A DNA stretch of 64,000 nucleotides from Capnocytophaga periodontitidis. Lineage in GTDB: Bacteria > Bacteroidota > Bacteroidia > Flavobacteriales > Flavobacteriaceae. Positions 11,003-36,233 of the stretch are shown here, in pieces. A model generated the notes under the pieces. It was not told the DNA's origin and did not search any database. It worked only from the letters and a program-made list of their open reading frames with translations. Numbering within the stretch: position 1 is the first letter of the stretch; every line of letters starts with the position of its first letter. The translations under genes were made by a program, and so were the position numbers. The stretch lies in contig NZ_JAEFDB010000001.1 in NCBI RefSeq assembly GCF_016126015.1, positions 434,001 through 498,000 on the forward strand, read 5' to 3'.

Positions 11003-11377
11003 TTACTTCTTTATTTTCTCTTCCATTAGTGATATAATCTTATCCTTCAGACCAGAGTTTTCTTGAGTAAGTCGTTTATTTTCTTTTTTTAGTTCTTCAT
11101 AATCTTTAGGAACATTTATAGTTTGATTTTGAGTAATAGTACTACTTACATTATTAAGCGCTTGTTGTACTATTTCCTCTTTTCTCAACATTTCGCCCTC
11201 TCCTGTGAGAAGCCAGTGTAGATTTATTTCTGGGTATTTAGAGTAAATTTTCTCTATACTTTCTGCTGAAAGCCCACTGTTTTTGTCTAAAATACCATTA
11301 GCAAGCCCTGTCTCTTTATAAAATTTATTTTTGCTAAGGTTTTTATAATCAATAAATTGCAAAATTCTTTCTTTCAT
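11003..11377 (-). CDS. XRE-type repressor of element A
   Basis: 124 residues. Residues 3-62 are a helix-turn-helix in the form common to Bacteroidetes phage repressors (NKFYKETGLANGILDKN, then LSAESIEKIYSKYPEINLHWLLTGEG). A linker and a C-terminal coiled coil (YEELKKENKRLTQENSGLKD) follow for oligomerisation. There is no peptidase domain, so it would not be self-cleaving like LexA-type repressors. It is transcribed away from the lytic genes and its upstream region carries face-to-face promoters. Confidence 0.82.
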   Translation of the reverse strand: MKERILQFIDYKNLSKNKFYKETGLANGILDKNSGLSAESIEKIYSKYPEINLHWLLTGEGEMLRKEEIVQQALNNVSSTITQNQTINVPKDYEELKKENKRLTQENSGLKDKIISLMEEKIKK

Positions 11378-11391
11378 AACTGAGAAAAATA

Positions 11392-11495
11392 TCTATAAAA
11401 ATTTGGGAGTTTAGAAAAATAGCTATACTTTTGTACCCGAAAAAGTAACACTAAAAGCGTCACTAATAATGGTAATCATATTTAGGCGACAAATA
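11392..11495. promoter_or_regulatory. Repressor/early promoter region of element A
   Basis: A rightward promoter has TTTG near 11402 and TACTTTTG at about 11430-11437. A leftward promoter toward the repressor has TATATTTG on the minus strand at about 11493-11500. TCTATAAAAATTT at 11392-11404 also occurs, exactly, at 38961 in front of the early promoter of element B, and may be an operator. A very short reading frame of 18 codons begins at ATG 11469. Confidence 0.55.
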
Positions 11496-11526
11496 TACGA
11501 ACTATTTTTGAGACACAAAAATTAAA

Positions 11527-11575
11527 CCTAAAAAAAACAAAAAAAGCCCCGCCACTTTGGGCAGAGCCTTTTTAG
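11527..11575. terminator. Bidirectional terminator between repressor and membrane-protein gene
   Basis: AAAAAGCCCCGCC pairs (with G-U pairs) with GGGCAGAGCCTTTTT. It ends the leftward 134-residue gene. On the plus strand it would also stop the transcript from the 11.43 kb promoter after about 140 bases, unless that transcript is antiterminated. Confidence 0.65.
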
Positions 11576-11725
11576 GAACTATTTACTTGTAAATTGTGGA
11601 TTTGAATAGAAGAAATATTTCCATTCATTTAAGGTTCCCTCTCTATGGGAGAGATTTGCCCAAAGAAAGGGCGAGGCAAAAATAATAAATAAAACCTAAA
11701 AACAATGAAAAAAGAAACACCCTTA

Positions 11726-12130
11726 CTAAACCTTCTCGGTATCAGCGCTTGCCTTGTTGCTATTCTTTATTTGTCCAAAGACATAGCCAATGAGAGCACT
11801 TACAAGCGTTGCATAAATAGTTTCGCTAATGCGTTGCGCGAATACCAAAAGGCTCAAGCAAATAAAAACACCAGCCACCAGCCCAGTATAAGTCCACAAG
11901 TGAGTGCGCCTATTACGCCTCCACGACTCCATACGCCGCTCCTCAAAAATAATTTTACGTTTCCGGATGCCCACACCGTCTACCGCGGGAGTAGTAACTT
12001 TACCCTCAATAGCTTTAGCGATACTAAAAAGCAAAGCCTGTACACCCTCATTCTTAAGAACATTTTCAATCATCTGTGGCACATTGCTTTGCTGTTTTGC
12101 ATTGTCTTGATTTTCTTGTACTTCTTGCAT
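11726..12130 (-). CDS. Small membrane protein, two spans
   Basis: 134 residues with a charged N-terminal half (MQEVQENQDNAKQQ, then IFEERRMESWRRNRRTH), two hydrophobic spans (LWTYTGLVAGVFICLSLLVFA and ISETIYATLVSALIGYVFG) and a short polar tail. A flavobacterial promoter (TTG, then TATATTTG on the minus strand near 12150) precedes it, and a terminator follows. The opposite strand also holds an open frame (11705-12139) but with less protein-like composition, so I prefer this strand. Function unknown; lysogeny-side expression suggests superinfection exclusion or maintenance, which is speculation. Confidence 0.6.
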   Translation of the reverse strand: MQEVQENQDNAKQQSNVPQMIENVLKNEGVQALLFSIAKAIEGKVTTPAVDGVGIRKRKIIFEERRMESWRRNRRTHLWTYTGLVAGVFICLSLLVFAQRISETIYATLVSALIGYVFGQIKNSNKASADTEKV

Positions 12131-12451: not shown

Positions 12452-12500
12452 AAACCAAACACAAACCGAACACGAAGCGAACACGTAAAACCATAAAACA

Positions 12501-12893: not shown

Positions 12894-15785
12894 ATGAATA
12901 ACGACTACAAGTACACCCCTGAAGAACTATACGCCCACACTAACAAAGGACTTGATATACTCTACCGTTACGAACCCGCCTGCATAGGCTGTATGGGTGC
13001 CAAAAACTTCAAATTCAACAAAGGTGAACGCACCGCCTCTGCCTCTCTTTTCATTCCAAAGGGAGAGAACTTTTGGGCGATAAAAGACTTCTCCAGTGGC
13101 GAATTTATTACCCCCATACAACTCGTTCAAAAGTACACCGGCAAAGAATTTGGCGAAGCCCTCAAGGACTTGTACGCCGAATTTAACGTACCCACAACCG
13201 ACAAAGTATTCCAAAGCAACGTAACTTTTCGCGAAGACACCACCCTACCCGAAAACTATTGGAAAATTATCGCAAAACCAAAAATCGAAAACCCACAAGT
13301 ATATTCCCGCTTTGTAACCGCCGAACTACTCGAAAGTTTCGGTATCATCGAAATTGATTACACCGAACGCCGTACCAAAAGCGGAAAAATAATGCGTGTA
13401 ACCAACACACCCGCCTACCCAATGTTCGCCTATTCCGATAACTACGAGCAATGGGCAAAAACCTATTGCCCAAAAGAATCTAACAAATCCTACAAACACT
13501 CTTATTTCGGACAAAAACCCACCCACTACGTACACGGCTACAAGCGTATCCTCGATAAAATAGGCAATAATTATGAGCGCATAATGGAACTCCAAAAACG
13601 TATGGAAAAACCAGAAACCAGCGATTTAGAAAAAGAAATGTTCCAAGAAGAATTAAACGAAATGCTCCTCCCATACATCATAATATGCTCTGGTGGGTCT
13701 GACGGCGTATCCGTCGCCTCACTATCCGAAGAATTCAATCCTGTATGGTGCAATTCCGAAGCCGAAATCATAACACCTACCATATACCACGAACTAAAAA
13801 AACTCACCAAAAACCTAATAAACCTACCCGATTTAGACCCCTCAGGCATAAAATTCGCCTACAAATACTCACTACAATACTGGAAGTTACCCACCGCATT
13901 CCTCCCCAACTACTATTTCACCGATGAAGACGGAAACACCAAAGGCAAAGACTTTCGCGACTACCTCCTACATCGCGACTTTACACACGCCTCAAAAGAA
14001 TATATAACCAAAAAATTCAAAGAACAATTAAGCGTTGCCGTATCCTGCAACTTTGTAATGCTAAATGAGCGAAAACAATACCGCGTAAACGCCCGAAACC
14101 TATTCTATTTCCTCAACTGTCATAACTTTTTCGGATACAAACCCGAATTTGTAACCGACAAAAATCCCAATGAAACCGACGATATACTAATCCAAATAAA
14201 CAAACACAAAATAAAAGTACCCACCTCAAAAGATATACGCCAATACTGCCAAGAATTCCTTATCCGTCAAGGAACCTCCCCCGACGTGCTCGAAATGCTC
14301 GAAAAAACAAACGCCCTACGAGCCTCCGACCTCGTCAATCTACCCGCACGCACCCTCGACTTTACCAACTACGGCGCCGATTATCAAATCTTTTTCTTTG
14401 ATAACATATCCGTAAAAGTAACAGCCTCCCAGCTACAAACCGTAACCGATAAAGACATCACCTGCTACGTGTGGGACAAACACATCATATCCAACCGATT
14501 CACCGCCCTGCCCTCATTCTTTGAAATGTACCAAGATGAAGCAGGCAACCAGCGCGTACATATACACCAAACCGATTGTGAATTTATGAACTTTATAATC
14601 AACGGAAGCCGCGTACACTGGGAAACCGAAAAAGAACAAAACCCCGATTTCCGCAAAACCTATATACTCAACAGCCCACACCTTACCGAGCAACAGCAAA
14701 TCACCCAAGAACGCCACTTTCTCGGCAAATGCTTTGCCATTGGCTACCTCCTCCACAAATACAAAAAACGCGGCTTTGAAAAATACGTATACGTAATGGA
14801 CGACAAAGTAAAGGACAGCGTAACCGAAAACAACGGACGAAGCGGTAAAGGGCTAATGATTAACGGGCTACGAGAACTCGCACCCTATTTCTATCGAGGC
14901 GGTAAAAACCCCGACCTATTCCGCGACAAACACCTATTCGGGACCTACAAAGGCGAACCACTCATCTATTTTGACGACTTGCACGCCTCAATACCCTTTT
15001 CCGAAGTATACACCTACGTAACCGACGGTATCACCGTAAACGAAAAAACAAAAGGCGACTACCATATACCCTACGAAAAAGCACCAAAAATGGTAGGAAC
15101 CTACAACCACGCCATACGCAATATGACAAGTAGCGATATAGGGCGAATCCTATTCGTAACATTTTCCGATTATTACTACTTTTCACTCACCGACAAGTTT
15201 CAACCCATCGACGACTTTGGGCACGCCTTTTTCCAAGACTGGGACGAAAAACAGTACAACCTATTCTATAACTTTATGCTACAGTGCTTGCAATTTTTCC
15301 TTGCCAATCAGCACGCACCAGTGCTATCGCCTATCGAAAACCTACAAATAAACACCCTCAAAGCCTCCATAGGCGACAACTTTATGGAATGGGCAGAAGA
15401 ATATTTTTGTGAAGAAAACCTAAACCGAGAAATACTAAAAAAAGAAATGTACGACGACTACCGCAATGTAGTCGGCAAAATGGCAGTACAAATAAAGAAT
15501 TTCAAAAAGAACATCGCCCTATTTTGCCAACTCAAAGGCTACGTATTCAACCCAAAAGAACTATGCAATTCACAAGGCTACATCAAGCGCACCGTTTACA
15601 ACCCCGATAACACCCGCACCACCAAAGAATACTTCTTTGTAGGTATCCCCAAAGACGAAACCAACCCACAAACCCCCAACCCAGCAGCCAACCCAGCAAC
15701 CACCACCCCGTCCCACCCGTCCGCCTTGTCCGACCCGTCCAACGACGACAACGACCCCGATTTATTCAACGATTTACCCTATTAA
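12894..15785 (+). CDS. Primase-helicase replication protein of element A
   Basis: 963 residues. Residues about 15-95 hold a CHC2-like primase zinc-binding region: a CIGCMG Cys pair, then KDFSSGEFITPIQLVQK at the position of the DFxxGG-DVIxFV element. A Toprim-like stretch follows near 260-320 (IICSGGSDGVSVAS, then LPDLDPSG). The C-terminal half is an SF3/D5-type helicase, with Walker A GRSGKGLM near residue 650, Walker B LIYFDDL, and a motif C analogue KMVGTYNHAI. It would start and unwind DNA at the element's origin. The last 40 residues are a Pro/Ser/Thr-rich tail (HPSALSDPSNDDND). Length and order are as in phage primase-helicases. Confidence 0.85.
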   Translation: MNNDYKYTPEELYAHTNKGLDILYRYEPACIGCMGAKNFKFNKGERTASASLFIPKGENFWAIKDFSSGEFITPIQLVQKYTGKEFGEALKDLYAEFNVPTTDKVFQSNVTFREDTTLPENYWKIIAKPKIENPQVYSRFVTAELLESFGIIEIDYTERRTKSGKIMRVTNTPAYPMFAYSDNYEQWAKTYCPKESNKSYKHSYFGQKPTHYVHGYKRILDKIGNNYERIMELQKRMEKPETSDLEKEMFQEELNEMLLPYIIICSGGSDGVSVASLSEEFNPVWCNSEAEIITPTIYHELKKLTKNLINLPDLDPSGIKFAYKYSLQYWKLPTAFLPNYYFTDEDGNTKGKDFRDYLLHRDFTHASKEYITKKFKEQLSVAVSCNFVMLNERKQYRVNARNLFYFLNCHNFFGYKPEFVTDKNPNETDDILIQINKHKIKVPTSKDIRQYCQEFLIRQGTSPDVLEMLEKTNALRASDLVNLPARTLDFTNYGADYQIFFFDNISVKVTASQLQTVTDKDITCYVWDKHIISNRFTALPSFFEMYQDEAGNQRVHIHQTDCEFMNFIINGSRVHWETEKEQNPDFRKTYILNSPHLTEQQQITQERHFLGKCFAIGYLLHKYKKRGFEKYVYVMDDKVKDSVTENNGRSGKGLMINGLRELAPYFYRGGKNPDLFRDKHLFGTYKGEPLIYFDDLHASIPFSEVYTYVTDGITVNEKTKGDYHIPYEKAPKMVGTYNHAIRNMTSSDIGRILFVTFSDYYYFSLTDKFQPIDDFGHAFFQDWDEKQYNLFYNFMLQCLQFFLANQHAPVLSPIENLQINTLKASIGDNFMEWAEEYFCEENLNREILKKEMYDDYRNVVGKMAVQIKNFKKNIALFCQLKGYVFNPKELCNSQGYIKRTVYNPDNTRTTKEYFFVGIPKDETNPQTPNPAANPATTTPSHPSALSDPSNDDNDPDLFNDLPY

Positions 15786-15797: not shown

Positions 15798-16343
15798 ATG
15801 AGAACAATCCAAGAACTCGTGCCCCTTATCCAAGAATGGGCAAAAGAAAGAGAAATCTATAAGAAAATAACACGTTTTAACCAGCTCATCAAAACCCACG
15901 AGGAAGTCGGTGAGCTCATAAAAGCGTGTTATGACAACGACAAAACCGCTATTCAGGACGCTATTGGCGATGTAATGGTAACACTTATTAACTACTGCTA
16001 TATGGAAAGAATAGACGTATTAGAGCAAATCAATGATGTTTTGAATTTTGAAAGAAATCGAGGGAATAGCAAAGTAGTGTTAGCATTAAACATTCAAGAT
16101 AGTTTAAATCGTCTAATGCACGCTAATTTCAGATTATTAGGGATAGGTGGAGAAACGCCCTTTTTGTATTTTTACGAAATCATTACCATAATTGGTTATT
16201 TAGATGATATAGCCTTCTTAGAAAACACCACCCTTGAGGAGTGTATAAACATCGCCTACAACGAAATTAAAAACCGAAAAGGCAAGATTATTAACGAAAA
16301 ATTTATCAAAGATGAACACCGAAAACAGCAAAACAGATTTTAA
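15798..16343 (+). CDS. MazG-like nucleotide pyrophosphohydrolase (element A copy)
   Basis: 181 residues. The metal-binding motif is EEVGELIKA near residue 35, followed by DAIGDVMVTLINYCY (E-x2-E ... D-x2-D type), as in all-alpha NTP pyrophosphohydrolases. These hydrolyse non-canonical dNTPs or alarmones, and phages use them to reset host metabolism. A close paralogue is in element B (48348-48860): the first 70 and last 40 residues agree almost completely while the middle is different. The stop overlaps the next start by 32 bases. Confidence 0.8.
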   Translation: MRTIQELVPLIQEWAKEREIYKKITRFNQLIKTHEEVGELIKACYDNDKTAIQDAIGDVMVTLINYCYMERIDVLEQINDVLNFERNRGNSKVVLALNIQDSLNRLMHANFRLLGIGGETPFLYFYEIITIIGYLDDIAFLENTTLEECINIAYNEIKNRKGKIINEKFIKDEHRKQQNRF

Positions 16344-18401: not shown

Positions 18402-18409
18402 TATATTTG
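18402..18409 (+). promoter_or_regulatory. Late promoter of element A
   Basis: TATATTTG at 18402-18409 with TGACAAAA further upstream; the next ATG (18443) is 33 bases on. No terminator is seen in the next 17.8 kb of same-strand genes, apart from the hairpin at 23366, so this is the probable start of the late operon. Confidence 0.65.
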
Positions 18410-18442
18410 CCCCCGAATATTAATAACCTTAAATCGCATAAT

Positions 18443-20518
18443 ATGAGTATAACAGCAGACGAGATTAATAGGGGGCTACACCGCGAAGTGCGCACTGGCG
18501 CGCTCTATGGTGCTTTTATGCCCCCCTCCGACTGCTCCTCTACCAAGCTCGGCAACGGCGACACCTCTTTTGCTATCCAAAATATGGCAAAAACAGCCCG
18601 CAAGTACCAGCACCACACCCGCGATTTAACCCTAAAGTTTTTCAGTGGAATGCCCCTCGAAAAACTTTGTAATGATATTCACCAATTCTTGTATTGGCAC
18701 TTTCAATATAGTATCGACGGCGACAAACAGCTACTGCGTTCCCCCGCTTGTAGCTGGCTCTCCCGTTTCGACGGTATCGACTGCAAAAGCTACAGCATAT
18801 TTGCCTCAACAATACTCCTCAATGCAGGAATAAAGCACTATATGCGCCGTATTAAGCAAGCAATGAACCCCAACGGCTTCACCCACGTATACGTAGTAGT
18901 ACCGAAAAACCAAAAAACCGCAAATCTCACACAAGGTTATTACGTAATCGACGGTACCATCAACACAATGCAAGAACTGCCATACCTCGAAAAAGACGAT
19001 GTATCGGTTTATCATAATGAAAAGTCTGGTTTATCATCGCCCCTACCTACAATGCTCACAAGCGACACCCGACATCAAAAACGGCAAGCGTGGCGAGCAT
19101 TTGTAGAGGCGATAGATAATATCGGAAAACTCAACCCTAATAACCCCGAACTCGCCCACCTCAAAGCGCGTGTATACCAACTCGCCAAAGAGAAACAAAC
19201 CAATGTACCTTTCAAGATAGACGGCTTTACAATCACCCTCGACGGACGTAAATACAACCTTTGGAAAAAAGAATACGAAGCCACCGCCCTCGGTGAAGCC
19301 GATGTAAACCAGCAGTTAGAAGAGTTGCTAAACCAATCCTATGAGGCAGGCAAGCAAAATGCCGAAGCCACTGGCGCGTATCACAAGCAAAAAGCACAAC
19401 AAACAGTCAATGCTGTAGGTAATGCAGCTTCAGCCACCGCTACCGCCACCATTGTAGCCATAGGAGGAAAAGCCGCTTTAGCTTCCAACGCTGTCCCTGG
19501 AGTGGGTACCATTGTAGGACTATGTATTGCCGCTGTAACCGCTATTGTAGCCCTCGCCATAATGCTTTGGGGCGACCCTTGCGCGGGTGCTTTCTACACC
19601 TCCGACTATATCAATCGCGGACTAAAAGAACAATTCTTTGAGCAGTTCAAAACCACAATGAACACCCTGCGCACCAAGTTAGAGCAGGGATTGGAGCCTA
19701 CCGCTACAAGTGAACTCAATAAACTTTTGAAAGAAATAGACCTCGGTAGCGCACACTATTACCACGAATGCCAAGTACACAACCAAAAATGTAGTACCGA
19801 AACACTAAAGAGTTACGACACATTCGTCAAAAACACCAAAAAAGCCGTTGATGATATGCTTGATATGCTCAAATTCAAGCTATCCGAAAACTTTAATGTA
19901 GCAATTATAGAACGCCAAGGCAGTGTATCCGAACGAAGTTGGTACTTCATAGTGCCCAGTGGCAAAGATGTAATATCAGCCAAATACCGCTTCCTAAAAG
20001 TAGAAAGCCGCGACAAGAAAAAAGGCATATATCCTTATGGAAGCGAACAGAGTTTTGACGCGTGGCTTGAAGAGAATGTAACCACCTTGCGGGTAGAATA
20101 CGGCGCACAACAAGCTGAAGCCTACCGTCGTGAGATGTTACCTTTCAAAGAAAAAATCGCCGCCATACGCCGTAATATATACCTCCCAGTCGTTACCCAA
20201 GTAACAATGGAAGACGAACTAAGGCGTGAGCAATACAGTATCTATCTCAAGTACGATAAAAAGTACCAACAAGAACTGTTAGACCTCGCCAAAAGCAAAA
20301 CAGAAGCCTACAACCTTGCCAATAAAACATTTTGGGAAGAACTCAAAAAAATACGAGCCCAACGCCTATACGAAGAGCAACACAGCGACGAAAATCGCCG
20401 TAAAATCGCACAATCAGAAGCAAATAGAATGGTAGGGCTCGAAAACAAAAAACTCCTAAACCTCGCCCTTGTTGGCGCATTAGGAATAGGAGTACTAACA
20501 CTCATCAGCAAAAACTAA
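18443..20518 (+). CDS. Large transglutaminase-like virion-associated protein with C-terminal anchor
   Basis: 691 residues from ATG 18443; an in-frame TTG at 18407 is part of the promoter. Residues about 90-200 show a transglutaminase/papain-like core, with Cys in FDGIDCKSYSIFAS, His in FTHVYVVVP, and Asp in YYVIDGT. Such domains cleave or cross-link proteins. The middle holds a long Ala/Gly-rich hydrophobic stretch (TATATIVAIGGKAALASN, then VPGVGTIVGLCIAAVTAIV). Long helices follow, and a last hydrophobic segment (LALVGALGIGVLTLI) ends in SKN. It is the first gene of the late operon. A role in capsid maturation or entry is likely but unproven. Confidence 0.7.
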   Translation: MSITADEINRGLHREVRTGALYGAFMPPSDCSSTKLGNGDTSFAIQNMAKTARKYQHHTRDLTLKFFSGMPLEKLCNDIHQFLYWHFQYSIDGDKQLLRSPACSWLSRFDGIDCKSYSIFASTILLNAGIKHYMRRIKQAMNPNGFTHVYVVVPKNQKTANLTQGYYVIDGTINTMQELPYLEKDDVSVYHNEKSGLSSPLPTMLTSDTRHQKRQAWRAFVEAIDNIGKLNPNNPELAHLKARVYQLAKEKQTNVPFKIDGFTITLDGRKYNLWKKEYEATALGEADVNQQLEELLNQSYEAGKQNAEATGAYHKQKAQQTVNAVGNAASATATATIVAIGGKAALASNAVPGVGTIVGLCIAAVTAIVALAIMLWGDPCAGAFYTSDYINRGLKEQFFEQFKTTMNTLRTKLEQGLEPTATSELNKLLKEIDLGSAHYYHECQVHNQKCSTETLKSYDTFVKNTKKAVDDMLDMLKFKLSENFNVAIIERQGSVSERSWYFIVPSGKDVISAKYRFLKVESRDKKKGIYPYGSEQSFDAWLEENVTTLRVEYGAQQAEAYRREMLPFKEKIAAIRRNIYLPVVTQVTMEDELRREQYSIYLKYDKKYQQELLDLAKSKTEAYNLANKTFWEELKKIRAQRLYEEQHSDENRRKIAQSEANRMVGLENKKLLNLALVGALGIGVLTLISKN

Positions 20519-25018: not shown

Positions 25019-25145
25019 AAAATTAGCAACGTTAGACGAAAAAGTATTAGTACGCCTCGCAAGCCTTTCAGATAACAAAAAGGCTTTGAGTTATTTTTCT
25101 AACAGTATTCTTTGGAATGCTTTAAAAGGATTCTTAAAAATATAG
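24996..25145 (+). CDS. Short helical protein, 49 residues
   Basis: ATG at 24996 overlaps the end of the preceding gene by 23 bases, which suggests coupling. The product (MNKQQALEKLATLDEKVLVR, then LASLSDNKKALSYFSNS) is a helical amphipathic peptide. No known family. It was too short for standard calling, but the overlap, direction and codon use support it. Confidence 0.5.
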   Translation: MNKQQALEKLATLDEKVLVRLASLSDNKKALSYFSNSILWNALKGFLKI

Positions 25146-27460: not shown

Positions 27461-27952
27461 ATGAAAAACATATTTTTCTTTATAATTCTATTATGTAGTA
27501 TGTTCATTTTGGGCTGTCGTACCTATAAAGCAGAGAAACAGTCTACCGTACAAAAAACAACCGACACTATATGGATAGATCGTACCCTCCCCATCCACGA
27601 CACCCTATACATACCCATAACACCACCACACACCGGCAACAACCAGTGCGACACCCTATGCCAGCAACAACTACAACAACTCCTCGAACGCCTCAACACC
27701 ACCAAACACAGCAGGCAAAACAACTACGGTATCTATTACGACAAATACCGCCAACAACTCATACTATACCAAAACCTACAACAACAACTCAATACCTATA
27801 AATCACACAATCAACAAATACAAACCTCACTCTACAAAATGCAACCCGTACCCTATGTACCCACGTGGATAAAAATACTTGCCGCCATAGGTATATTAGT
27901 AGTAATCTATATATGCTATAGAATCTCCCGATTTTTTACCCTAAAACCCTAA
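27461..27952 (+). CDS. Unimolecular-spanin-like lipoprotein
   Basis: 163 residues. The N-terminus is a lipoprotein signal with the lipobox ILGC (Cys at 19), the middle is Gln-rich and coiled coil (QQLQQLLERLN, then YRQQLILYQNLQQQLNTY), and the C-terminus is one membrane span (WIKILAAIGILVVIYICY). An outer-membrane lipid anchor plus an inner-membrane span in one chain is the defining layout of u-spanins, which fuse the two membranes in the last step of lysis. It follows the holin-like gene. Confidence 0.72.
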   Translation: MKNIFFFIILLCSMFILGCRTYKAEKQSTVQKTTDTIWIDRTLPIHDTLYIPITPPHTGNNQCDTLCQQQLQQLLERLNTTKHSRQNNYGIYYDKYRQQLILYQNLQQQLNTYKSHNQQIQTSLYKMQPVPYVPTWIKILAAIGILVVIYICYRISRFFTLKP

Positions 27953-27958: not shown

Positions 27959-28540
27959 ATGAAAGTAAAATACCTCATCATCGGTGGAACACTCATCGGC
28001 GCATTCGCCCTAATGAGCTTTATCAAAGCCAAAACCGCACAAGCCAAAGATGTATTCGAGAAAATACTCTTCAAAGTAGGCTTCCCCAAAAACTTCGATA
28101 TAAGCACCACACGCCTGCGCTTCTATATCGATTTCACCCTACAAAACCCCACCGCACAAGATTTCACCGCACGCACTGGCAACCTCATCACAGCCAAAGC
28201 CTACCGCGTATATCGAGGCAATGAAGTAGTAGCCTTTGGCGACCTCGGCAATATCGATGGCGTAACACTCCCCGCTGGCGGAAGCTACACATTCAAAGAT
28301 ATATACGTCGAAATCCCCACCACCGACCTCGCCAAACATATCCTCAACATATCAGGAGGATTCTCAAGTTGGGGCAACCTCTTAAAAGGCACATTCTCAA
28401 AAGACAAAACCAACAACAACACCCAAACCTTTGTAAACACCCTCAAAGCCAACAGCCAGCAATTCCTAAAAGAATTGCGCTACGAAGTAGACGTCGAAGG
28501 CTTTGGACAGCTATACACCTTTAACAAAAACATCATATAG
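27959..28540 (+). CDS. N-terminally anchored LEA-2-like protein
   Basis: 193 residues. One span at residues 5-22 (YLIIGGTLIGAFALMSFI), then a beta-rich domain (TTRLRFYIDFTLQNPTAQDF, YRVYRGNEVVAFGDLG, TLPAGGSYTF, DIYVEIP) with the layout of LEA type 2 / WHy domains, and a helical end. In phages this domain occurs in membrane-associated virion proteins. It returns to the GC-richer codon use of the structural genes. Family reading is tentative. Confidence 0.55.
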   Translation: MKVKYLIIGGTLIGAFALMSFIKAKTAQAKDVFEKILFKVGFPKNFDISTTRLRFYIDFTLQNPTAQDFTARTGNLITAKAYRVYRGNEVVAFGDLGNIDGVTLPAGGSYTFKDIYVEIPTTDLAKHILNISGGFSSWGNLLKGTFSKDKTNNNTQTFVNTLKANSQQFLKELRYEVDVEGFGQLYTFNKNII

Positions 28541-28556: not shown

Positions 28557-29024
28557 ATGGATTTCAGAAACACCACATACAAGCGCGGTATACGCAACAA
28601 CAACCCAGGGAACATCATCATCAACAACACCCCTTGGGAAGGACTCGTGCCACTCCCTCAAAACACCGACGGCAAATTCCAACAGTTCAAAACATTAGAA
28701 CACGGATTGCGCGCCCTAATGACCAACGCACGCACCTATATTCTAAAATACGGCGCCAACACCATAGAGAAGCTAATGAGCAAATGGGCACCACCACACG
28801 AGAACGACACGAAAAAGTACATCAATTTCATCGCCACACAACTCAACATCAGCCCCACACAAACCCTCACCAAAACCGACCTTACTCAAAAGTTTTTCAT
28901 CACCATAGCCAAAGCCATCGCCCAAATGGAGTGCGCCCCCGACCACGTGCGTATTCCTCAAGCCTCTTACGAAAAAGCCCATAGTATGATGAGCCCCTTA
29001 AAAGACGAAAAAAAAAAGGAATAG
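28557..29024 (+). CDS. Muramidase-like virion or lysis protein, with probable frameshifted anchored form
   Basis: 155 residues. The start YKRGIRNNNPGNIIINNTPW and the later KFQQFKTLEHGLRALMTN are characteristic of phage virion-associated muramidases or transglycosylases. The gene ends in a run of ten A ending A AAA AAG, then GAA TAG. The -1 frame from this heptamer continues 27 codons with a membrane span (ATLLFIALAYGTYYW) and a basic end. It stops at the ATGA overlapping the start of the next gene. A soluble and an anchored form are therefore likely. A sequencing error in the A-run is the alternative. Confidence 0.75.
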   Translation: MDFRNTTYKRGIRNNNPGNIIINNTPWEGLVPLPQNTDGKFQQFKTLEHGLRALMTNARTYILKYGANTIEKLMSKWAPPHENDTKKYINFIATQLNISPTQTLTKTDLTQKFFITIAKAIAQMECAPDHVRIPQASYEKAHSMMSPLKDEKKKE

Positions 29025-29101
29025 GCGCAACTCTACTGTTTATAGCTTTAGCCTATGGAACATATTACTGGTATAAGAAAAATATAAAAATAAGAAAATG
29101 A
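29008..29101 (+). promoter_or_regulatory. Putative -1 frameshift site and extension, muramidase gene
   Basis: The slippery heptamer A AAA AAG lies at 29012-29018 in the correct phase, as in dnaX. The -1 frame reads from 29018 (GGA ATA GGC) to TGA at 29099-29101 and encodes one span followed by YKKNIKIRK. The frame has no start codon of its own after an upstream TAG, so only frameshifting or readthrough could express it. Confidence 0.65.
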
Positions 29102-29493
29102 ATCTAACAAAACACTTTACCCGACAAGAATTCGACTGCAACGACGGCACCCCCGTACCTGCACAGTATATGAGCAACGTAATAGAACTCGCCAAACAAC
29201 TCGAAGTATTGCGCACCGCCGTCGGCAACAAACCCATAAATATCAACAGTGGATACCGCACCCCCACCTACAACGCAACCCTAAAAGGAGCTGCAAAAGA
29301 TAGTCAGCACCTCCAAGCCAAAGCCGCCGACATCACTATACAAGGACTCACCGCCTTACAAGTATACAACATCATCGAAAAACTCATCGCCCAAGGCAAA
29401 ATGAAACAAGGCGGTTTAGGACTCTACGACACTTTTGTACACTACGACATACGAGGCAACGCCTCCCGTTGGAACCTCACAAAAAAAAAGTAA
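29098..29493 (+). CDS. M15 family peptidoglycan peptidase, with probable frameshifted anchored form
   Basis: 131 residues of the M15A (D-Ala-D-Ala carboxypeptidase or L-Ala-D-Glu endopeptidase) type: GYRTPTYNATL, the zinc ligands in SQHLQAKAADI (H-x6-D) and VHYDI. It begins NLTKHFTRQEF as usual for phage enzymes. It cleaves cross-link peptides of the wall. The gene ends T K K K stop on A AAA AAG TAA. The -1 frame gives 39 further codons with a hydrophobic segment (IIGTITLLALTSYLI) and a basic end. It is coupled to the muramidase through the ATGA overlap of the extended form. Confidence 0.85.
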   Translation: MNLTKHFTRQEFDCNDGTPVPAQYMSNVIELAKQLEVLRTAVGNKPININSGYRTPTYNATLKGAAKDSQHLQAKAADITIQGLTALQVYNIIEKLIAQGKMKQGGLGLYDTFVHYDIRGNASRWNLTKKK

Positions 29494-29721: not shown

Positions 29722-29926
29722 ATCTATCATACAAGGCTACCGTAACGCCCTCTTCCGCGACGACCTCCACATCGAAGCCGAAGCCTTGCGCCGTCTCGAA
29801 ATCTGTAAAAACTGCCCCTTGCAAAAAACAATAATGGGAGTAAAATGCTGTGGCGTTTGCGGGTGCCCACTTGCAGGACTCACCCGCCAAAACACAAAAG
29901 TCTGTAAAAAATGGAAAAAACAATAA
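29711..29926 (+). CDS. Small Cys-rich protein, probable zinc binder
   Basis: 71 residues with C-x2-C (CKNC) near 33, KCCGVCGCP near 45 and a later Cys. This spacing suits a zinc knuckle or two small zinc sites. The N-terminus is helical and basic (MQIKSIIQGYRNALF). The start overlaps the 46-residue gene. Function unknown; zinc-ribbon proteins of this size occur in many phages. Confidence 0.6.
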   Translation: MQIKSIIQGYRNALFRDDLHIEAEALRRLEICKNCPLQKTIMGVKCCGVCGCPLAGLTRQNTKVCKKWKKQ

Positions 29927-29930
29927 AGAT

Positions 29931-30416
29931 ATGAGTTTCTTAAACACCTTAAAAGCAGTAGAAAGCCTAAATCAAACGACAGTTATACAAAAAAGTTTAG
30001 ACACCTATAACCTTACTCCTTACACTATTGAGGAGTTGCAAACCTATGTCAATACCCACCACCCCGCTTTTGGTGACTATCGAGGTGCGTATTACCAATG
30101 GCAAGTAAAAGCTGAAATCGCCAAACGCAAAGGGCTACCAATTCCAGAAAAACCTTCAAATCCTTTTGGTATAGATTACTCAAAAAAAACAGAAAATCGC
30201 AAAATAAACGAAATGCTTTCTGAACTTCCAAAAGACGAAAGAGTAAAGCGAATGTTAGCAATTAGCAAGGAAAATAAAGAAAAACAAACCGCACCACAAA
30301 CCACACCACAACAACCCGTGAATCCCGAACTAACATTACCTAAAAAAAACAACTACACCACACTATTATTCATCGGTGGAGGACTCTTAGTTGCCTATCT
30401 ATTATTCAAAAAATAA
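29931..30416 (+). CDS. Tail-anchored protein
   Basis: 161 residues from ATG 29931; the open frame reaches back to 29850 but lies over the previous gene. Residues 1-90 form a helical domain (VNTHHPAFGDYRGAYYQWQV is distinctive), then a Lys/Glu/Gln-rich linker, and one span at the end (TTLLFIGGGLLVAYLLF) with KK. The same topology as the genes at 20531, 21325 and 21701. No family recognised. Confidence 0.62.
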   Translation: MSFLNTLKAVESLNQTTVIQKSLDTYNLTPYTIEELQTYVNTHHPAFGDYRGAYYQWQVKAEIAKRKGLPIPEKPSNPFGIDYSKKTENRKINEMLSELPKDERVKRMLAISKENKEKQTAPQTTPQQPVNPELTLPKKNNYTTLLFIGGGLLVAYLLFKK

Positions 30417-30422: not shown

Positions 30423-33400
30423 ATGAAAGAATTTATTGCCCTACACAACCGCACTGTATCACGCGACGAAATACAAACCGTTATAGCCCTTGCCAAAGAA
30501 CAAAACAACACCGAAGTCATCTATCGCCTATCCAAAATCCTCAACGATCACCCCGATAGCAACCGCTTCAATATCAACATCATCAACTACCCCACCGTAG
30601 GGGCGAATAGCAATTCGCCCTTAAATACAGCACTTGCGGGCACACGCCATTCAGGCGACTACCGCGAAGCCCTCGACGAATGCGGTCGCCTAAAAAAAGG
30701 CTGGCACTTTGTAGACGGCAAAGTCGTAAAAGTGCAAAAACGTAGCGGTTTATTATCACAATACACCGAAAAAGAGTTTGGACACCCATTTACCAAAACA
30801 CTCAAAGCAAAGTTCAAAGAATTAAACTGGAAATACGACAGAAAAAACAAACGTTATTATACCCCCGTTCCCGAAAACGAAGCCGAAAAAGAACAACAAG
30901 CCCAAATGTTCGCTTTCATCGAACAAGAAAAAGCAACATTAGAGGTAAATAAACCAGAAAAATCGCCTAAAACCCCCTCCGACAAGTCCGCCCCGTCCGA
31001 CTCGTCCTCAAAAACCTATACCGCTGAAACATTCGCTAAAGACTTAGATTTTAACACCATTAAACGCTCATATAGTTGGATTTCATTTGACCCTGACGCT
31101 CACGCTGAAAGAGATATTAAACAATGGGGCGAAATGTTCTATAGTCTATATAATTCACTATCTGGAGAAGCTAAAAAGCAAGGTGTTTTAGAAAAGTATA
31201 ATAGCGCGTTTAACAACGGGTATAACTCGCTATTGAAACTCGAAAGAGAAATAATAGCAACTCGTAGCAAAACATTTAGCACGGCTATTACTGGAGGAGC
31301 AGGTATTACCGAAAAACAAATTTCTACTAATGAAAAGAGAATGCGCCTGCAAATTGAAAAAAGCGAATTATGGAGCCAAAAGTACGACAAACTATATAAT
31401 ATATTAGAGAAAATAGCTAAAAACAAACCCGCAGACCTATACCAAGAGGGTGATGTTATCAAGAGTACAGATAACAACGCGACAACAAAGCTACAGCAGA
31501 AGCTAAAAATGTTACAAGACAGAAAAACAATGTTAAAAAACGGCGTTGTAGCAGCTAAAGAATATCAAAAAAACAAAGATTTATCAGTATTCAAAAAATA
31601 TAACATTGACAAAGAAACAACAAAAACTATTGTTAATCATATAGATAAGGGAGGCAAACCAACTGAAAAAGATATGTACAATTGGTTTACAATGCCATAC
31701 CTCAATAGAGATATTAAGGAAGTGGAAAAACGTATTGCAATCCTCGGAAAAAACCAATCACAAGGAGAAAAGGAAACACTTATTGAGGGTGGAAAAATAG
31801 TATATAATGGCGAAGCACAACGCCTACAAATATTCTTTGACGGTATCCCCAGCAAAGAAGTGCGCGAAGCCCTCAAATCTCACGCTTTCAAATGGGCTCC
31901 CACCGCCAAAGCGTGGCAACGTACCCTTACCGAAAACGCCAAATATGCAGTAAACCAATACCTAATAAAAACTGGTATACTCAAATTGCGTACAGCCTTA
32001 TCTGCACCACATCAAGAAGACGAAATCGCCTTCCTCTCCGCCGCTGGTATCGAATACTTCCCCGAAGCCCCCGATGACGAAACACAAGGACTCGGAAAGC
32101 CAGTGCCCGCAGCCGATATATACAAAATGGTAACCGATAAAATAATCGGTATGCTAAAATCAGCCAGCCCCACCGACTATCACCGCGCGTGGAAAGACGA
32201 CGTTTTCTTTATACCTATCAATTACGCCAGCAAAAAACCATATCGAGGCGTAAACCGACTATTGTTGCAAGAACGCATAGGCTTTGCAGGAGCATTTCGC
32301 AACCCCTACTTCCTAACATTCAAGCAAATCAAAAAACACAAAGGAACCCTAAAAAAAGGCGCAAAAGGCTATGAAGTAATATATTACTCAATCCGCTATG
32401 TTGTCCCAGCCGACAAAAATAGCGGGCGTAAAGCCTATTCTTCTACCAACGCACAAAAAGTACTTGATTTCTTACACAAATATAACCTCCCCGAAAGCGA
32501 AGTAACCCGTATCCCAATGATACGCTATTACAACGTATACAACGGAGCAGATATAGAAAACATAGATTTCAAGTTAGACGAACTCCAAATCGGTCGCGCC
32601 GTCCCCGATAGCGCCACCGAAAACCGCGCCGCACAACTCATAGTCGAAAACTACCCCAACCCTCCCGCAATCAAGCACGAGGGCAACCAAGCCTATTATA
32701 ACCCCGCCAGCGACTATATAAAGCTACCCAAACAAGAGCAATTCGATACCATAAACGACTACTACCGTACCCTATTCCACGAGCTCACCCACTCCACTGG
32801 GCACAACAAGCGACTAAATCGAGGAATACACCTAATGTTAGAAAAAGACGATTATGCCAAAGAAGAGTTAGTAGCCGAGTTTGGTGCCGTATTCCTATCC
32901 GCTTGGGCAGGTATAATGTGGTACAACAACAAAAACCACGCCGCCTACCTCAAAGGCTGGAACAGCGCAATCAAAGAAGCCCAAAACGACAACAAATTCC
33001 TAATGCGCGCCGCCTCACTTGCCCAGCAAGCCACCGACTATATCCTTGCACTGGATAAGGACGGCAACCCCGCTTTTCTCAAAAAGCTACAAGGCAAAAA
33101 AGCCCCCAAAAACACCCCCAAAACACCCACCGACAAGTCCGCCCCGTCCGACTCGTCCTCAAACAAAAACATTTTTTTAGAAGAATATAGACAACTCAAA
33201 TCTAAATACCCAGAACACTTGATAATTGTTAGTATGGAAGATCAACAAAACTATACTATGTATGGTAAAGATGCCGTTATTGCAGCCGACATATTAAATT
33301 TACAACTTTTAAAGTTAAAAAGAAATGATGAGTTTTCTATTTCAGTAGGTTTTAAATATAAAAATCTTAGAGAATATTTAGAAAAATTAGTAAAGGCAGG

Positions 33401-35843
33401 GTACAAAGTCGCTCTTGTCGGAAAAGATTTAGATAAACCTAAGAGCTCCCCTAAAAAAAACACCCCCAAAACCCCCACCGACAAGTCCGCCCCGTCCGAC
33501 TCGTCCTCAAACAAAAACACAAAAAAAAAAGCCCCTCGTACCACCCAGTACAAGGGCGTAAAAACCATACCCCTAACCGACCTATACACCGATGAAAAAC
33601 GCTTTCAAAACCGCAAAAAACTCAATGAAGAAATAGTCGAAAATATCGTCAATAACTTCAAACCTACCGACCTCGACCCCTTAGTCGTATGGTACGATGA
33701 AAAGCAAGGAAAAACCTTTGTATTGGCAGGACATCACCGTTACGAAGCCCTAAAACGTTTAGGACATAAAACCGTACCCGTAAAATACGCCAATGATGAT
33801 TATCCCACTGAAGCCGATGCTATTCGTTACGCCAAAGAAATAAGCAATGCCAACCGCACCTTAGAAGAGCCTTACGAACGCGCTGCAATCTATCGCAAAT
33901 ACCGCGATGAGGGATATAGTGAAAAAGAAATCAACGAAAAAGCCAATATCGAGGGAAAAAACCGCTCATATATACTCAACCTATCGTGCCTAAACCCCAA
34001 AGGTAGCATAATGAGCACCCTCGTACAATTCAGCCAAACACAAAGCAAAGCCGACAAAAACGAAATTGAACGTATTGCCGACTGGATAGGGCAAGCACGC
34101 CGTAACGCCCCAGAACTCACCAATGCACACGAGCAAGAAATGTTTGATTTTCTAATGAATAAAGAAGCCAGCAAGCGCACCAATACCAAAGCTAAATTCT
34201 TAGAGTATGTACGCGCCTGTTGGAATCCTTTTGCCCCAAGCGAACCTCTAAATCTCGCCCGTATGAAATACCAATCAGAGGGAGAAAAACAGTACGACGA
34301 AGAAGTCGAAAACCTAAAGACACAAATCAGCACCTATCAAGGATATATTGATAACCTAAAAGATAGGTTTATAAACCCCTCCAATAAGGACTTTGTAAAC
34401 CCCACTGCTCCAGACTATATGGCAGTGAAAAAAATCGCCGACGACAAAATCGCCGAATACAACACCAAAATACAATACTATCAGTCCCAACTAATGAAAG
34501 TCTATCAAAACAAACAGACCTATATAAAACCAACGGGACAAACAGCACTTTTCGGCAAATACCCCGAAATAAATACTTTAGCTTTCAAAAAAATGAAAGT
34601 AACAGAACTTAGAGAATTCACCTTAGAGTTTTATAGACTCTTCCTAAAAGGCAAGAAAAAAGAAATCGAAAAACACTTAAAAGAGGTTGTGTTCACCTCT
34701 GAAGGAGGTCGTAAAATAGCCTATGGTGAAGCTATGTACAGTGCCAAAGCAGCCGTAATAGAACATTTGGATACTTTAATTAAAAACTCTACCTATAACA
34801 ACTGGGGAGATAGAAAAACATCAGACAATGAAGAAATATTAGGTTATCTAAATTTCAAAAGCAAAATTACTATTGACGGCAAAAAACGCCACGTTCGTAT
34901 TGCTATCAGCGTAGATAAAGATAGGAACTTGAAATTCAAAAGTTATGATGTAGGCAAAAAGAAAAGTGTTTCAACTCACAAAGGGGTGAAACCTTTCAGC
35001 GGTGGAGTTGAAACACTTTCTACTGAAAGTGTAGCAAAAACCGTGCCCAATTCCGCACTGTCAGCCCCCGAAGTATTCGTCGAACACTCACCAGACCCCG
35101 CCACCCAGTCCGCACCGTATATAACACCCCGTAACAACAGCATTGCCAATAAAATGGCAACGCTCCAAAATCGCACCTTTGAAACATTCATCATCGCAGA
35201 GCCACAAATGCAAGCCTTTCTCGGTGATGTAGAACGCAAAAATACAGGTAGCACCGCAATCACAATCACAGGAGGAGCAGGAAGCGGAAAAACACGCTTT
35301 GCCTTTCAATTCATCAACGCCCTGGCACAAAACTACAAAGTAGGACACGCCAGCCTCGAAGAGCAACCCGATAGCAAACTATATTTCGACAAAGTACAAC
35401 AGTACCTCGACCAAACCGCACAAGCCAATGTCGAAGCCCCCGAAATAGAAAATATGCAGGACCTACAAGCCCTCATAGAACGCAACGATGTAATTGTAAT
35501 CGACAGCTTTACCAAAATACGCGAATGGAACAGAAACTTCTTACTCGATAGAGATTTGCGCAAAAAGTACAACGGCAAGCTATTCCTAATCATATTCCAG
35601 CAAACCGTAGCAGGCAATATGCGAGGAGGCACAACCTCCGAGTTCGACGGCGATATAATTCTGTACACACAAGTATTCCCCGACTATCGAGAGAATTACA
35701 TATACCCGTCCAAAAACCGCTACAACAGCACCCCCAGCGAACAATTGCGCTACAGCGTATATCACCAGCAACTATTACCCAGCGAGTCCACCCCGCCCGA
35801 CTCCTCCCCAGTAACAAGTAACACCTATGAAGTAATTTATTAG
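30423..35843 (+). CDS. Polyvalent protein: ArdC-type protease, MutS-I-like, ParB-like and RecA-like domains
   Basis: 1806 residues, a chain of unrelated domains. Residues about 440-535 form a DUF3560-like unit (HAFKWAPTAKAWQRTLT). Residues 565-700 resemble the ArdC ssDNA-binding domain, and 730-860 a zincin with FHELTHSTGH and EELVAEFGA. A MutS domain I-like unit is at 918-1010 (DAVIAADILNLQLLK). A ParB-like unit is at 1040-1160 (LAGHHRYEALKRLGHKTVP), and a further helical/beta unit at 1390-1510. A RecA-like ATPase at 1590-1790 has Walker A GGAGSGKT and DVIVIDSF. Linkers of KSAPSDSSS type separate the units. Polyvalent proteins are thought to enter the host with the DNA and counter defences; the ArdC-type protease fits this. 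Confidence 0.8.
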   Translation: MKEFIALHNRTVSRDEIQTVIALAKEQNNTEVIYRLSKILNDHPDSNRFNINIINYPTVGANSNSPLNTALAGTRHSGDYREALDECGRLKKGWHFVDGKVVKVQKRSGLLSQYTEKEFGHPFTKTLKAKFKELNWKYDRKNKRYYTPVPENEAEKEQQAQMFAFIEQEKATLEVNKPEKSPKTPSDKSAPSDSSSKTYTAETFAKDLDFNTIKRSYSWISFDPDAHAERDIKQWGEMFYSLYNSLSGEAKKQGVLEKYNSAFNNGYNSLLKLEREIIATRSKTFSTAITGGAGITEKQISTNEKRMRLQIEKSELWSQKYDKLYNILEKIAKNKPADLYQEGDVIKSTDNNATTKLQQKLKMLQDRKTMLKNGVVAAKEYQKNKDLSVFKKYNIDKETTKTIVNHIDKGGKPTEKDMYNWFTMPYLNRDIKEVEKRIAILGKNQSQGEKETLIEGGKIVYNGEAQRLQIFFDGIPSKEVREALKSHAFKWAPTAKAWQRTLTENAKYAVNQYLIKTGILKLRTALSAPHQEDEIAFLSAAGIEYFPEAPDDETQGLGKPVPAADIYKMVTDKIIGMLKSASPTDYHRAWKDDVFFIPINYASKKPYRGVNRLLLQERIGFAGAFRNPYFLTFKQIKKHKGTLKKGAKGYEVIYYSIRYVVPADKNSGRKAYSSTNAQKVLDFLHKYNLPESEVTRIPMIRYYNVYNGADIENIDFKLDELQIGRAVPDSATENRAAQLIVENYPNPPAIKHEGNQAYYNPASDYIKLPKQEQFDTINDYYRTLFHELTHSTGHNKRLNRGIHLMLEKDDYAKEELVAEFGAVFLSAWAGIMWYNNKNHAAYLKGWNSAIKEAQNDNKFLMRAASLAQQATDYILALDKDGNPAFLKKLQGKKAPKNTPKTPTDKSAPSDSSSNKNIFLEEYRQLKSKYPEHLIIVSMEDQQNYTMYGKDAVIAADILNLQLLKLKRNDEFSISVGFKYKNLREYLEKLVKAGYKVALVGKDLDKPKSSPKKNTPKTPTDKSAPSDSSSNKNTKKKAPRTTQYKGVKTIPLTDLYTDEKRFQNRKKLNEEIVENIVNNFKPTDLDPLVVWYDEKQGKTFVLAGHHRYEALKRLGHKTVPVKYANDDYPTEADAIRYAKEISNANRTLEEPYERAAIYRKYRDEGYSEKEINEKANIEGKNRSYILNLSCLNPKGSIMSTLVQFSQTQSKADKNEIERIADWIGQARRNAPELTNAHEQEMFDFLMNKEASKRTNTKAKFLEYVRACWNPFAPSEPLNLARMKYQSEGEKQYDEEVENLKTQISTYQGYIDNLKDRFINPSNKDFVNPTAPDYMAVKKIADDKIAEYNTKIQYYQSQLMKVYQNKQTYIKPTGQTALFGKYPEINTLAFKKMKVTELREFTLEFYRLFLKGKKKEIEKHLKEVVFTSEGGRKIAYGEAMYSAKAAVIEHLDTLIKNSTYNNWGDRKTSDNEEILGYLNFKSKITIDGKKRHVRIAISVDKDRNLKFKSYDVGKKKSVSTHKGVKPFSGGVETLSTESVAKTVPNSALSAPEVFVEHSPDPATQSAPYITPRNNSIANKMATLQNRTFETFIIAEPQMQAFLGDVERKNTGSTAITITGGAGSGKTRFAFQFINALAQNYKVGHASLEEQPDSKLYFDKVQQYLDQTAQANVEAPEIENMQDLQALIERNDVIVIDSFTKIREWNRNFLLDRDLRKKYNGKLFLIIFQQTVAGNMRGGTTSEFDGDIILYTQVFPDYRENYIYPSKNRYNSTPSEQLRYSVYHQQLLPSESTPPDSSPVTSNTYEVIY
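30597..30620. repeat. Small palindromic repeat within the polyvalent gene
   Basis: GTAGGGGCGAAT-AGC-AATTCGCCC, translated in frame as VGANSNSP. The same palindrome is at 54648 with the product VGANGNSP. Confidence 0.65.
33109..33520. repeat. Duplicated linker DNA flanking the MutS-I-like domain
   Basis: About 60 bases at 33109-33171 and 33459-33520 are nearly identical, encoding TPTDKSAPSDSSSNKN. They exactly enclose the MutS-like module. A third, shorter copy is at 30977-31012. They could act as recombination points for module exchange. Confidence 0.75.
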
Positions 35844-35846
35844 AAT

Positions 35847-36050
35847 ATGAGCACCACAGTAGTAACCAAAGTAGTATCCTACCAAGTAGGCGTAGATATA
35901 TTAGGCTTCCCCATATATCACGAACACCTATTTACCGAAGAACACATCACCGAAGATCACACCAAAAAACACGGCAAGAATATGACCAAGCACCACCGCA
36001 CACACACCGTCGTACCCCGCATATTCGCCTACATCGTAAAACAATTTTAG
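35847..36050 (+). CDS. Small His-rich protein
   Basis: 67 residues, 3 bases after the polyvalent gene. The sequence is rich in His and Thr (YHEHLFTEEHITEDHTKKHG, then NMTKHHRTHT), with hydrophobic ends. It may bind a metal or interact with DNA. No family recognised. Confidence 0.5.
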   Translation: MSTTVVTKVVSYQVGVDILGFPIYHEHLFTEEHITEDHTKKHGKNMTKHHRTHTVVPRIFAYIVKQF

Positions 36051-36073
36051 TAACCAATAAATAATTATTTAAT

Positions 36074-36196
36074 ATGGCAACAACCCGTAAAGTAGGCTTA
36101 AAAGCCAATGGAAAATTAAAAAAAGGATTCCGTTACAACGAAAACGGACGAATCGTTAAAGCCAAGGCTACCACCGCCAAACGCAAAAAACGCTAA
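36074..36196 (+). CDS. Very small, highly basic protein (probable DNA condensing protein)
   Basis: 40 residues, with 14 or so Lys/Arg (LKANGKLKKGFRYNENG, then KAKATTAKRKKR). It begins ATG 36074 after an AT-rich spacer and is the last gene before the late terminator. Small basic peptides of this sort package DNA in the virions of several virus groups. Too short for standard calling; the coding signal is strong. Confidence 0.65.
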   Translation: MATTRKVGLKANGKLKKGFRYNENGRIVKAKATTAKRKKR

Positions 36197-36208
36197 TACC
36201 CCTTTTCT

Positions 36209-36233
36209 CCAGCCCCGTAAGGCTGGTTTTTTT
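36209..36233 (+). terminator. Terminator of the late operon
   Basis: CCAGCC-CCGTAA-GGCTGG followed by seven T. It lies 13 bases after the last late gene. Confidence 0.9.

Follow-up and report, generated by a model that had tools for sequence, protein, structure and literature searches.

A probable tailless jelly-roll prophage of Capnocytophaga periodontitidis related to the phage SSIP-1

The present study concerns element A, a segment of 28.2 kb in the chromosome of Capnocytophaga periodontitidis, located in a stretch of 64,000 nucleotides (contig NZ_JAEFDB010000001.1, positions 434,001 to 498,000, in our set G000:C1:434001-498000), to which we refer as the window. Our analysis identifies this element with good confidence as a temperate icosahedral phage without a tail that is related to SSIP-1 and integrated at a tRNA-Met gene. 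Element A has discrete ends and an integrase, a conserved late block, a protein (f3) with a predicted capsid-like fold and homology to virion proteins of SSIP-1, and it is very probably a dormant virus whose tailless shell is built from one jelly-roll coat protein. The presence of membrane-anchored proteins together with the likeness to SSIP-1 suggests that this shell is probably lined by a membrane. An earlier sequence-only reading of the window had proposed a tailless phage with an icosahedral jelly-roll shell, which agrees with the absence of terminase, portal or conjugation families above cut-off in our profile searches, the predicted capsid-type fold of the protein encoded at 22767 and the proteins shared with SSIP-1. 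Its designation as a new type was too strong, since SSIP-1, a phage of this kind from the Bacteroidota/Chlorobiota group, already exemplifies such a virion, and element A is thus a relative of a known phage and not a wholly new kind. A size of 28 kb, which had appeared unusually large in a comparison with tectiviruses and FLiP only, is not unprecedented either, because SSIP-1, with the same kind of virion, comprises 43,788 bp.

Results

A predicted coat protein in a conserved late block

The candidate major capsid protein f3 comprises 195 amino acids (aa) in the window copy, whose predicted structure contains eight strands, and its length ranges from 183 to 244 aa across 84 open reading frames (ORFs). 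Among the best matches of the predicted fold to solved structures are chains of P23-77, HCIV-1, HHIV-2 and SH1, with the cell proteins C1q and PHM also found, and the model also has the coat protein fold of Sulfolobus polyhedral virus 1 (SPV1), which was compared by coat fold only. The f3 profile found no match among PDB sequences, even at E 10, and a double-barrel protein of the kind that forms FLiP-type coats was not found in the late block. Four small proteins had previously been described as beta-rich and recommended for a structural search for jelly rolls; two of them, encoded at 22767 and 23441, are modelled as eight-strand barrels or sandwiches with capsid-type proteins among their matches, the former (f3) giving a capsid-type fold and the latter (f11) a jelly-roll-like one with unspecific matches.

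The f3-type coat gene is single, with one match in the host genome and one gene in all but one of the 83 f3-bearing elements (repeats included). In the exception, L118, two f3 genes are found in tandem, which are sisters in a coat tree built from a subsample of 36 rows (support 98/95, on long branches), indicating that f3 has been duplicated at least once inside the lineage.

The spread of this lineage was followed with f0, a large late protein. Among 199 genomes sampled within the family, 12 encode a relative, including that of the window (one weak at E 1e-4, another on a short contig), and a search of the genome collection with a profile of nine relatives gave 89 confirmed relatives. The 80 best of them, which were kept, belong to Capnocytophaga, Tenacibaculum, Flavobacterium, Kordia, Bizionia, Maribacter, Aequorivita, Mesonia, Leeuwenhoekiella, Pustulibacterium, Aurantibacter, Cochleicola, Croceivirga and other Flavobacteriaceae, and to a metagenome-assembled genome (MAG) labelled Chlorobiota. 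When 2.9 million IMG/VR contigs were scanned by pattern with the same profile, five records were found, and in two of these the DNA duplicates that of bacterial genomes included before; one IMG/VR relative of 30,467 bp carries a 127-bp direct end repeat as a sign of circular assembly and is probably a closed circle. The candidate coat protein f3 itself is encoded in 9 of 20 genomes of the same genus and in 8 of 395 genomes sampled across the phylum, the own genome being included in both counts and two of the latter lying outside the family. Two genomes assigned to the same genus contain 200-bp segments with full identity to contigs of C. bilenii and C. felis, in line with Capnocytophaga as the genus.

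When elements repeated under two handles were merged, the 96 with f0 were reduced to 83 distinct ones, 72 of which extend at least 6.5 kb downstream of f0 (an earlier count of 73 of 81 includes repeated elements). Within these 72, f9 is found in 68, f3 in 71, f11 in 68, f27 in 65, f1 in 71 and f12 in 67. The search for a co-conserved set, suggested by the sequence-only reading, thus recovered all seven core genes together in 64 of the 72 elements, with their order kept in each of the 64, which include those of Flavobacterium aquatile LMG 4008 (L070) and F. cauense R2A-7 (L074). From the other eight, three lack only f27 and one only f12, L047 shows f0 only, and L113, L117 and L118 show f0, f3 and f1, with f9 in L118 and f12 in L117 added at a looser cut-off. 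Two elements of the lineage reside in the genomes of Flavobacterium amniphilum (L078, L089), a Tenacibaculum MAG (L045, L046) and Kordia periserrulae (L054, L055), and G268:C3 holds two copies 105 kb apart.

A hairpin directly after the coat gene is a further shared feature. In the 70 bases that follow the f3 stop codon, the folding z-score relative to dinucleotide shuffles is below -2 in 63 of 71 elements (mean -4.1), compared with 9/68 after f9, 4/68 after f11, 6/71 after f1 and 17/67 after f12. SSIP-1 contains such a hairpin between gp46 and gp47 (z -4.0) and none after gp45 (z 0.1), whereas in L118 both f3 copies are followed by one (z -3.3 and -3.0), as is the f3 gene of L117 (z -3.6). 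A strong stem behind what would be the most expressed structural gene would be expected of a coat gene. This interpretation is weakened by element G268a, which has no hairpin (z -0.6), and by the Persicobacter relative described below, whose short GC-rich hairpin is not told apart by shuffles; in G252 and G268b the gap after f3 is too short for the fold test.

Relationship to SSIP-1

SSIP-1 is described as an icosahedral phage that contains a membrane, has two types of coat protein and shows a PRD1-like architecture (PMC6356626, PMC4958249). Its genome was reported to resemble hardly anything in GenBank (PMC6356626), and it is referred to as unclassified (PMC5332951). Our comparisons covered either 35 of the 57 genes annotated in SSIP-1, with the last of them truncated, or 22. 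They relate f0 to the structural protein gp34 (hhalign 97.4%, E 9e-12) and the ATPase end of the polyvalent protein f6 to gp40 (97.1%, E 5.5e-11, both matching phrog_6891), whereas the relationship of f6 to gp43 is indirect, through a Persicobacter protein (40892-43504) that matches the window at 2e-81 and gp43 at 1e-33. In the SSIP-1 record, the genes homologous to f0, f6 and the ATPase are all annotated as encoding structural proteins. For f3, the best of the 22 late SSIP-1 proteins tried are the paralogues gp45 and gp46 (75-79%, E about 2e-5), a match that is weakened by lower values with single sequences (27-45% for gp46) and by a drop to 4.5% with a profile of distant f3 proteins only. 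The match of f3 in the viral library has the length of gp46, and f3 and gp46 are alike in the position of the hairpin. We infer gp45 and gp46 to be the coat proteins of SSIP-1, in whose record they are named only 'structural protein'. For f9 the best match is gp44, which is not significant (11-17%), and no counterparts of f11 and f27 were detected among the late SSIP-1 proteins compared.

Beyond these pairs, both elements share a succession of a hydrophobic helical protein, one or two coat-type proteins, a hairpin and small proteins (gp44 to gp48 in SSIP-1), an annotated integrase and a host of the Bacteroidota/Chlorobiota group. They differ in that SSIP-1 carries a pair of coat-type genes (gp45, gp46), encodes its ATPase separately and has a genome of 43.8 kb, whereas element A, a chromosomal provirus, has one coat gene and an ATPase fused to the polyvalent protein. 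Since the coat gene is single, with 84 f3 ORFs in the 83 elements, we refer to element A as a relative of SSIP-1 and not as a member of its group.

Both are bridged by 'Plasmid13' of Persicobacter sp. JZB09 (CP012856.1, L166), a circular replicon of 47,579 bp that shares with element A the order f0-f3-f11-f27-f1-f12-f7-f6-ATPase. In BLASTP, its proteins match the window with f6 (2e-81), f0 (9e-20), the ATPase (3e-18) and f3 (4e-14), and SSIP-1 with gp43 (1e-33), gp3 (2e-13), gp34 (6e-13), gp31 (1e-12) and gp56 (3.5e-9). In contrast to element A, it is extrachromosomal and deposited as a plasmid, it carries a separate 324-aa ATPase gene as in SSIP-1, its f5 is located ahead of f0 and not ahead of f6, and f9 was not found in it by profile. 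A portion of about 14 kb is present again, at 94% identity, in another JZB09 replicon (CP012861.1, L167). Plasmid13 has the appearance of a phage or phage-plasmid that belongs to this lineage and is circular. A weak relative of gp34 (E 3e-4) is also encoded on MT839222.1, a faecal phage contig of 4.5 kb.

Searches for genes of tailed phages and conjugation

Pfam and PHROGs were both searched with 21 late ORFs of at least 60 aa, the replication protein, the MazG and PIN proteins, the integrase, the regulator (11003) and two small ORFs (12501 and 35847), and PHROGs alone with the small early ORFs 11705, 12076, 16312, 16588, 16650, 17309 and 17627 and with 36262; 10257, f12 (49 aa), the basic protein of 40 aa, two ORFs of 46 aa and any ORF in an overlapping frame lay outside these scans. 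No family of terminases, HK97 capsids, tails or conjugation exceeded the cut-off, either in the 21 late ORFs or in the early ones, the smallest of which were scanned by PHROGs only, and the late ORFs gave no whole-protein match above cut-off to the large terminase, portal or HK97 capsid of Caudoviricetes. This is in accordance with the sequence-only reading, which had seen no terminase, portal, HK97 capsid or tail gene and had named a terminase or portal found by sensitive search, or a conjugation module, as evidence to the contrary; for the latter, the only trace is Mobilization_B at E 0.48. Several matches do weigh against a tailless phage. They include the 'portal' family phrog_21 (E 7e-6), confined to the ParB stretch of f6, and domain-level matches of the lysozyme at 28557 to the 'tape measure' family phrog_2276 (E 5e-17) and to the head or injection PHROGs 873, 992 and 7182. 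Weaker ones are Terminase_6N on 12894 (E 0.64), TMP_2 on 21325 (E 0.11) and Phage_TTP_13 on 29850 (E 0.029).

Gene content and boundaries of element A

The late genes are located on the forward strand in a late operon, as noted previously. Ten of their products contain a strongly hydrophobic segment (a 17-residue stretch with a mean hydropathy of at least 1.8, with the holin and two 46-aa ORFs left aside), which in five is placed at the extreme C-terminus and followed by a short, mostly lysine-rich tail. The earlier estimate was of about ten one-span membrane proteins; those at 18407 and 27461 contain several hydrophobic regions (more than one each). The tiny basic protein noted previously is also present (Table 1).

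In f0, whose start codon is possibly the internal ATG at 18443, the residues Cys126, His160 and Asp182, which we take to be a catalytic triad, are invariant in nine relatives. Its transglutaminase-like character, also recognised before, is better defined through its relatives than by the window protein alone, which matches DUF553 below the cut-off (E 0.056). In f6, the match to MutS domain I (E 4.5e-14) lies between the ArdC/zincin and ParB parts, in a stretch missing from most shorter relatives in the alignment. This protein matches P-loop families other than FtsK/HerA, and its ATPase profile finds RecA, KaiC and SRP-type chains first.

The assignments of an integrase, a repressor, a primase-helicase, a holin and two wall hydrolases in the sequence-only reading are all supported by our searches (Table 1), whereas the spanin-like protein combines a lipoprotein-type signal and a C-terminal membrane segment, seen by eye, with the lack of a family match in the Pfam and PHROGs scans. 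In tblastn, the replication protein is related to those of Polaribacter phage Leef_1 ('DNA primase/TOPRIM', E 1e-86) and Bacteroides phage BT-TP2 (E 2e-89). As it is shared with tailed Bacteroidota phages, the early module is mosaic and uninformative on the virion.

A 55-bp perfect direct repeat with a spacing of 28,211 bp, the match to the 3' end of tRNA-Met and the integrase beside the right copy place the element at about 9859-38124, and the span of 11003-36233 assigned to it earlier was thus too narrow. The intact tRNA-Met gene is found at contig positions 516503-516576 (G000:C1), 44 kb past element A and beyond a neighbouring tailed-type prophage. This prophage, element B, abuts element A (window 38305-64000, on to G000:C1:516500), and both stand in tandem ahead of the gene. 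By eye, it is of the tailed type and encodes serine recombinases (39866, 40563), a 1063-aa primase-helicase (42260), an SppA-like protease (52265), a capsid-like protein (53547), methyltransferases (56855, 57649) and a fibre-like protein (61751). Repressor-like genes, also assigned by eye, flank element A outside its repeats (9342-9812 and 38305-38931), and part of the left flank is matched in 17 of 20 genomes of the same genus, including its own.

Table 1. Features of element A in window coordinates
Position	Strand	Feature	Basis
9859..9913	.	left attachment repeat	perfect copy of 38070-38124; right part matches tRNA-Met 3' end
10257..10928	-	lipoprotein-like cargo gene, between left repeat and regulator	sequence by eye
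11003..11377	-	probable repressor	similar to left-end genes of relatives G117, G193; phrog_8 transcriptional regulator E 6e-4
12894..15785	+	963-aa primase/helicase-like replication protein	tblastn to tailed Bacteroidota phages
15798..16343	+	MazG-like pyrophosphatase	phrog_1992 E 2.6e-44
18407..20518	+	f0: transglutaminase-like, C-terminal membrane segment, relative of SSIP-1 gp34	profile comparison, relatives
20531..21325	+	late protein, C-terminal anchor	hydropathy
21325..21699	+	late protein, C-terminal anchor	hydropathy
21701..22240	+	late protein, C-terminal anchor	hydropathy
22274..22735	+	f9: small alanine/glycine-rich core protein, positional counterpart of SSIP-1 gp44	conservation
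22767..23354	+	f3: candidate major capsid protein, single jelly roll	predicted structure, profile comparisons
23366..23414	+	22-bp perfect hairpin directly after f3	window sequence
23441..23812	+	f11: small beta-sandwich, jelly-roll-like by matches; possible vertex or second shell protein	AF2 pLDDT 91.5, eight strands
23812..24117	+	f27: small core protein	conservation
24119..25018	+	f1: core protein, Pro-rich linker and coiled-coil-like stretch	sequence, conservation
24996..25145	+	f12: 49-aa core protein, overlaps f1	conservation
25168..25671	+	f7: N-terminal anchor	conservation, hydropathy
25692..26204	+	second f7-family protein, N-terminal anchor	hydropathy
26209..26769	+	f4: CarboxypepD_reg-like beta domain, C-terminal anchor	PF13715 E 3.5e-10; hydropathy
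26772..27134	+	small protein	no BLASTP relative in other ten element stretches
27146..27448	+	holin	PF16083 (Phage_holin_3_3) E 2.9e-7; phrog_6384 E 1.4e-4
27461..27952	+	spanin-like protein	lipoprotein-type signal and C-terminal membrane segment, by eye
27959..28540	+	f5: N-terminal anchor, conserved in relatives	conservation
28557..29024	+	virion-lysozyme-like hydrolase	phrog_873 E 1.9e-35
29098..29493	+	peptidase M15 endolysin	PF08291 E 7.7e-17; phrog_894
29850..30416	+	late protein, C-terminal anchor, true start probably internal	hydropathy
30423..35843	+	f6: 1806-aa polyvalent protein (ArdC, zincin, MutS-I, ParB, LPD3), RecA-like ATPase end	ATPase related to SSIP-1 gp40
36074..36196	+	40-aa very basic protein	sequence
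36831..38051	-	tyrosine integrase adjoining right attachment repeat	PF00589 (Phage_integrase) E 1.9e-14; phrog_1 E 6e-36
38070..38124	.	right attachment repeat	55-bp perfect repeat

Discussion

The presence of P23-77, HCIV-1, HHIV-2 and SH1 chains among the best solved matches of f3 could point to a true helvetiavirus (Sphaerolipoviridae, Simuloviridae or Matsushitaviridae) in a new host group, and sphaerolipoviruses resemble element A in their single-barrel coats, internal membrane and membrane proteins with C-terminal helices (PMC6414509). They are, however, described with a pair of coat proteins and with packaging ATPases for which FtsK, HerA or STIV2 served as the model (PMC5332951). Of the two features that define Helvetiavirae, two vertical single-jelly-roll coats contrast with one f3 gene besides f11, whose jelly-roll-like matches are unspecific, and an FtsK/HerA-type packaging ATPase contrasts with a RecA-like one, as no such family was matched by the 1806-aa protein or its ATPase profile. 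In light of these differences, and of the missing PDB sequence match of f3, we regard this assignment as improbable.

Satellites often lack terminase and portal genes, and a tailed-type prophage abuts element A before the same tRNA-Met gene, which could suggest a capsid-less satellite borrowing the shell of a helper such as element B. The conserved late block with its own capsid-like protein, the own lysis genes, the retention of the complete ordered core in 64 of 72 distinct elements and the probably circular 30.5-kb metagenomic relative render this very unlikely, and both a satellite and a tailed prophage are disfavoured. We attach even less credence to a domesticated or non-viral cluster, such as a secretion or gene-transfer device using a jelly-roll protein; similar barrels do occur in cell proteins, and element A is known here from its genes alone and not from particles, but the late block is accompanied by an integrase, flanking repeats and genes for replication and lysis, and homologues of f0, f6 and the ATPase are annotated as structural in an isolated phage, SSIP-1. 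Phages of the FLiP and PhiCjT23 type (Finnlakeviridae), which are lipid-containing and tailless and infect Flavobacteria, have single-stranded DNA, a double-jelly-roll coat and much smaller genomes of about 9 kb. Despite the common host group and the description of PhiCjT23 as a lipid-containing temperate phage with single-stranded DNA (PMC9719478), the short eight-stranded f3, the far larger genome and a replication protein common with tailed phages make such an origin hardly credible.

As an SSIP-1 relative, element A would excise after induction and replicate with its primase-helicase, while late transcription may start upstream of 18.4 kb. The coat protein f3 would be made in large amount to form the shell, the hairpin ending or stabilising its transcript, with f11 and perhaps f27 forming vertices or filling gaps. 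Anchored proteins with short basic tails might reside in a membrane vesicle inside the shell and fasten the two together, and f0 would be a virion protein. The polyvalent f6 may enter the particle and then the host along with the DNA; its ArdC and ParB parts would act against restriction, while its ATPase end would assist in the loading or delivery of DNA. Because this ATPase is RecA-like, a role in packaging is uncertain; packaging ATPases are reportedly absent from SPV1 and FLiP (PMC8812541). Release would proceed via holin, endolysin and spanin.

SPV1 (Portogloboviridae), an archaeal virus, was proposed to show the state before coat duplication in the ancestry of two-coat viruses (PMC8812541). 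It is a tentative but serious possibility that the lineage of element A, a widespread group of bacterial proviruses with a shell from a single vertical jelly-roll coat, represents this proposed state preceding the two-coat helvetiaviruses. As the lineage has one-coat and two-coat members, the proposed origin of two-coat viruses becomes testable, and the step from one to two coats would be open to study among mutual relatives.

Collectively, there seems to be a large and almost overlooked group of viruses, with relatives in many Flavobacteria, that is linked to a single known phage from a salt lake. Such relatives are easily missed: the scan of IMG/VR found five f0 records, and a 2025 survey of temperate gut phages is described as searching for non-tailed phages with profiles of Microviridae, Tectiviridae and Inoviridae (PMC12629997). 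If our assignment is correct, relatives of SSIP-1 would be common prophages in Flavobacteriia.
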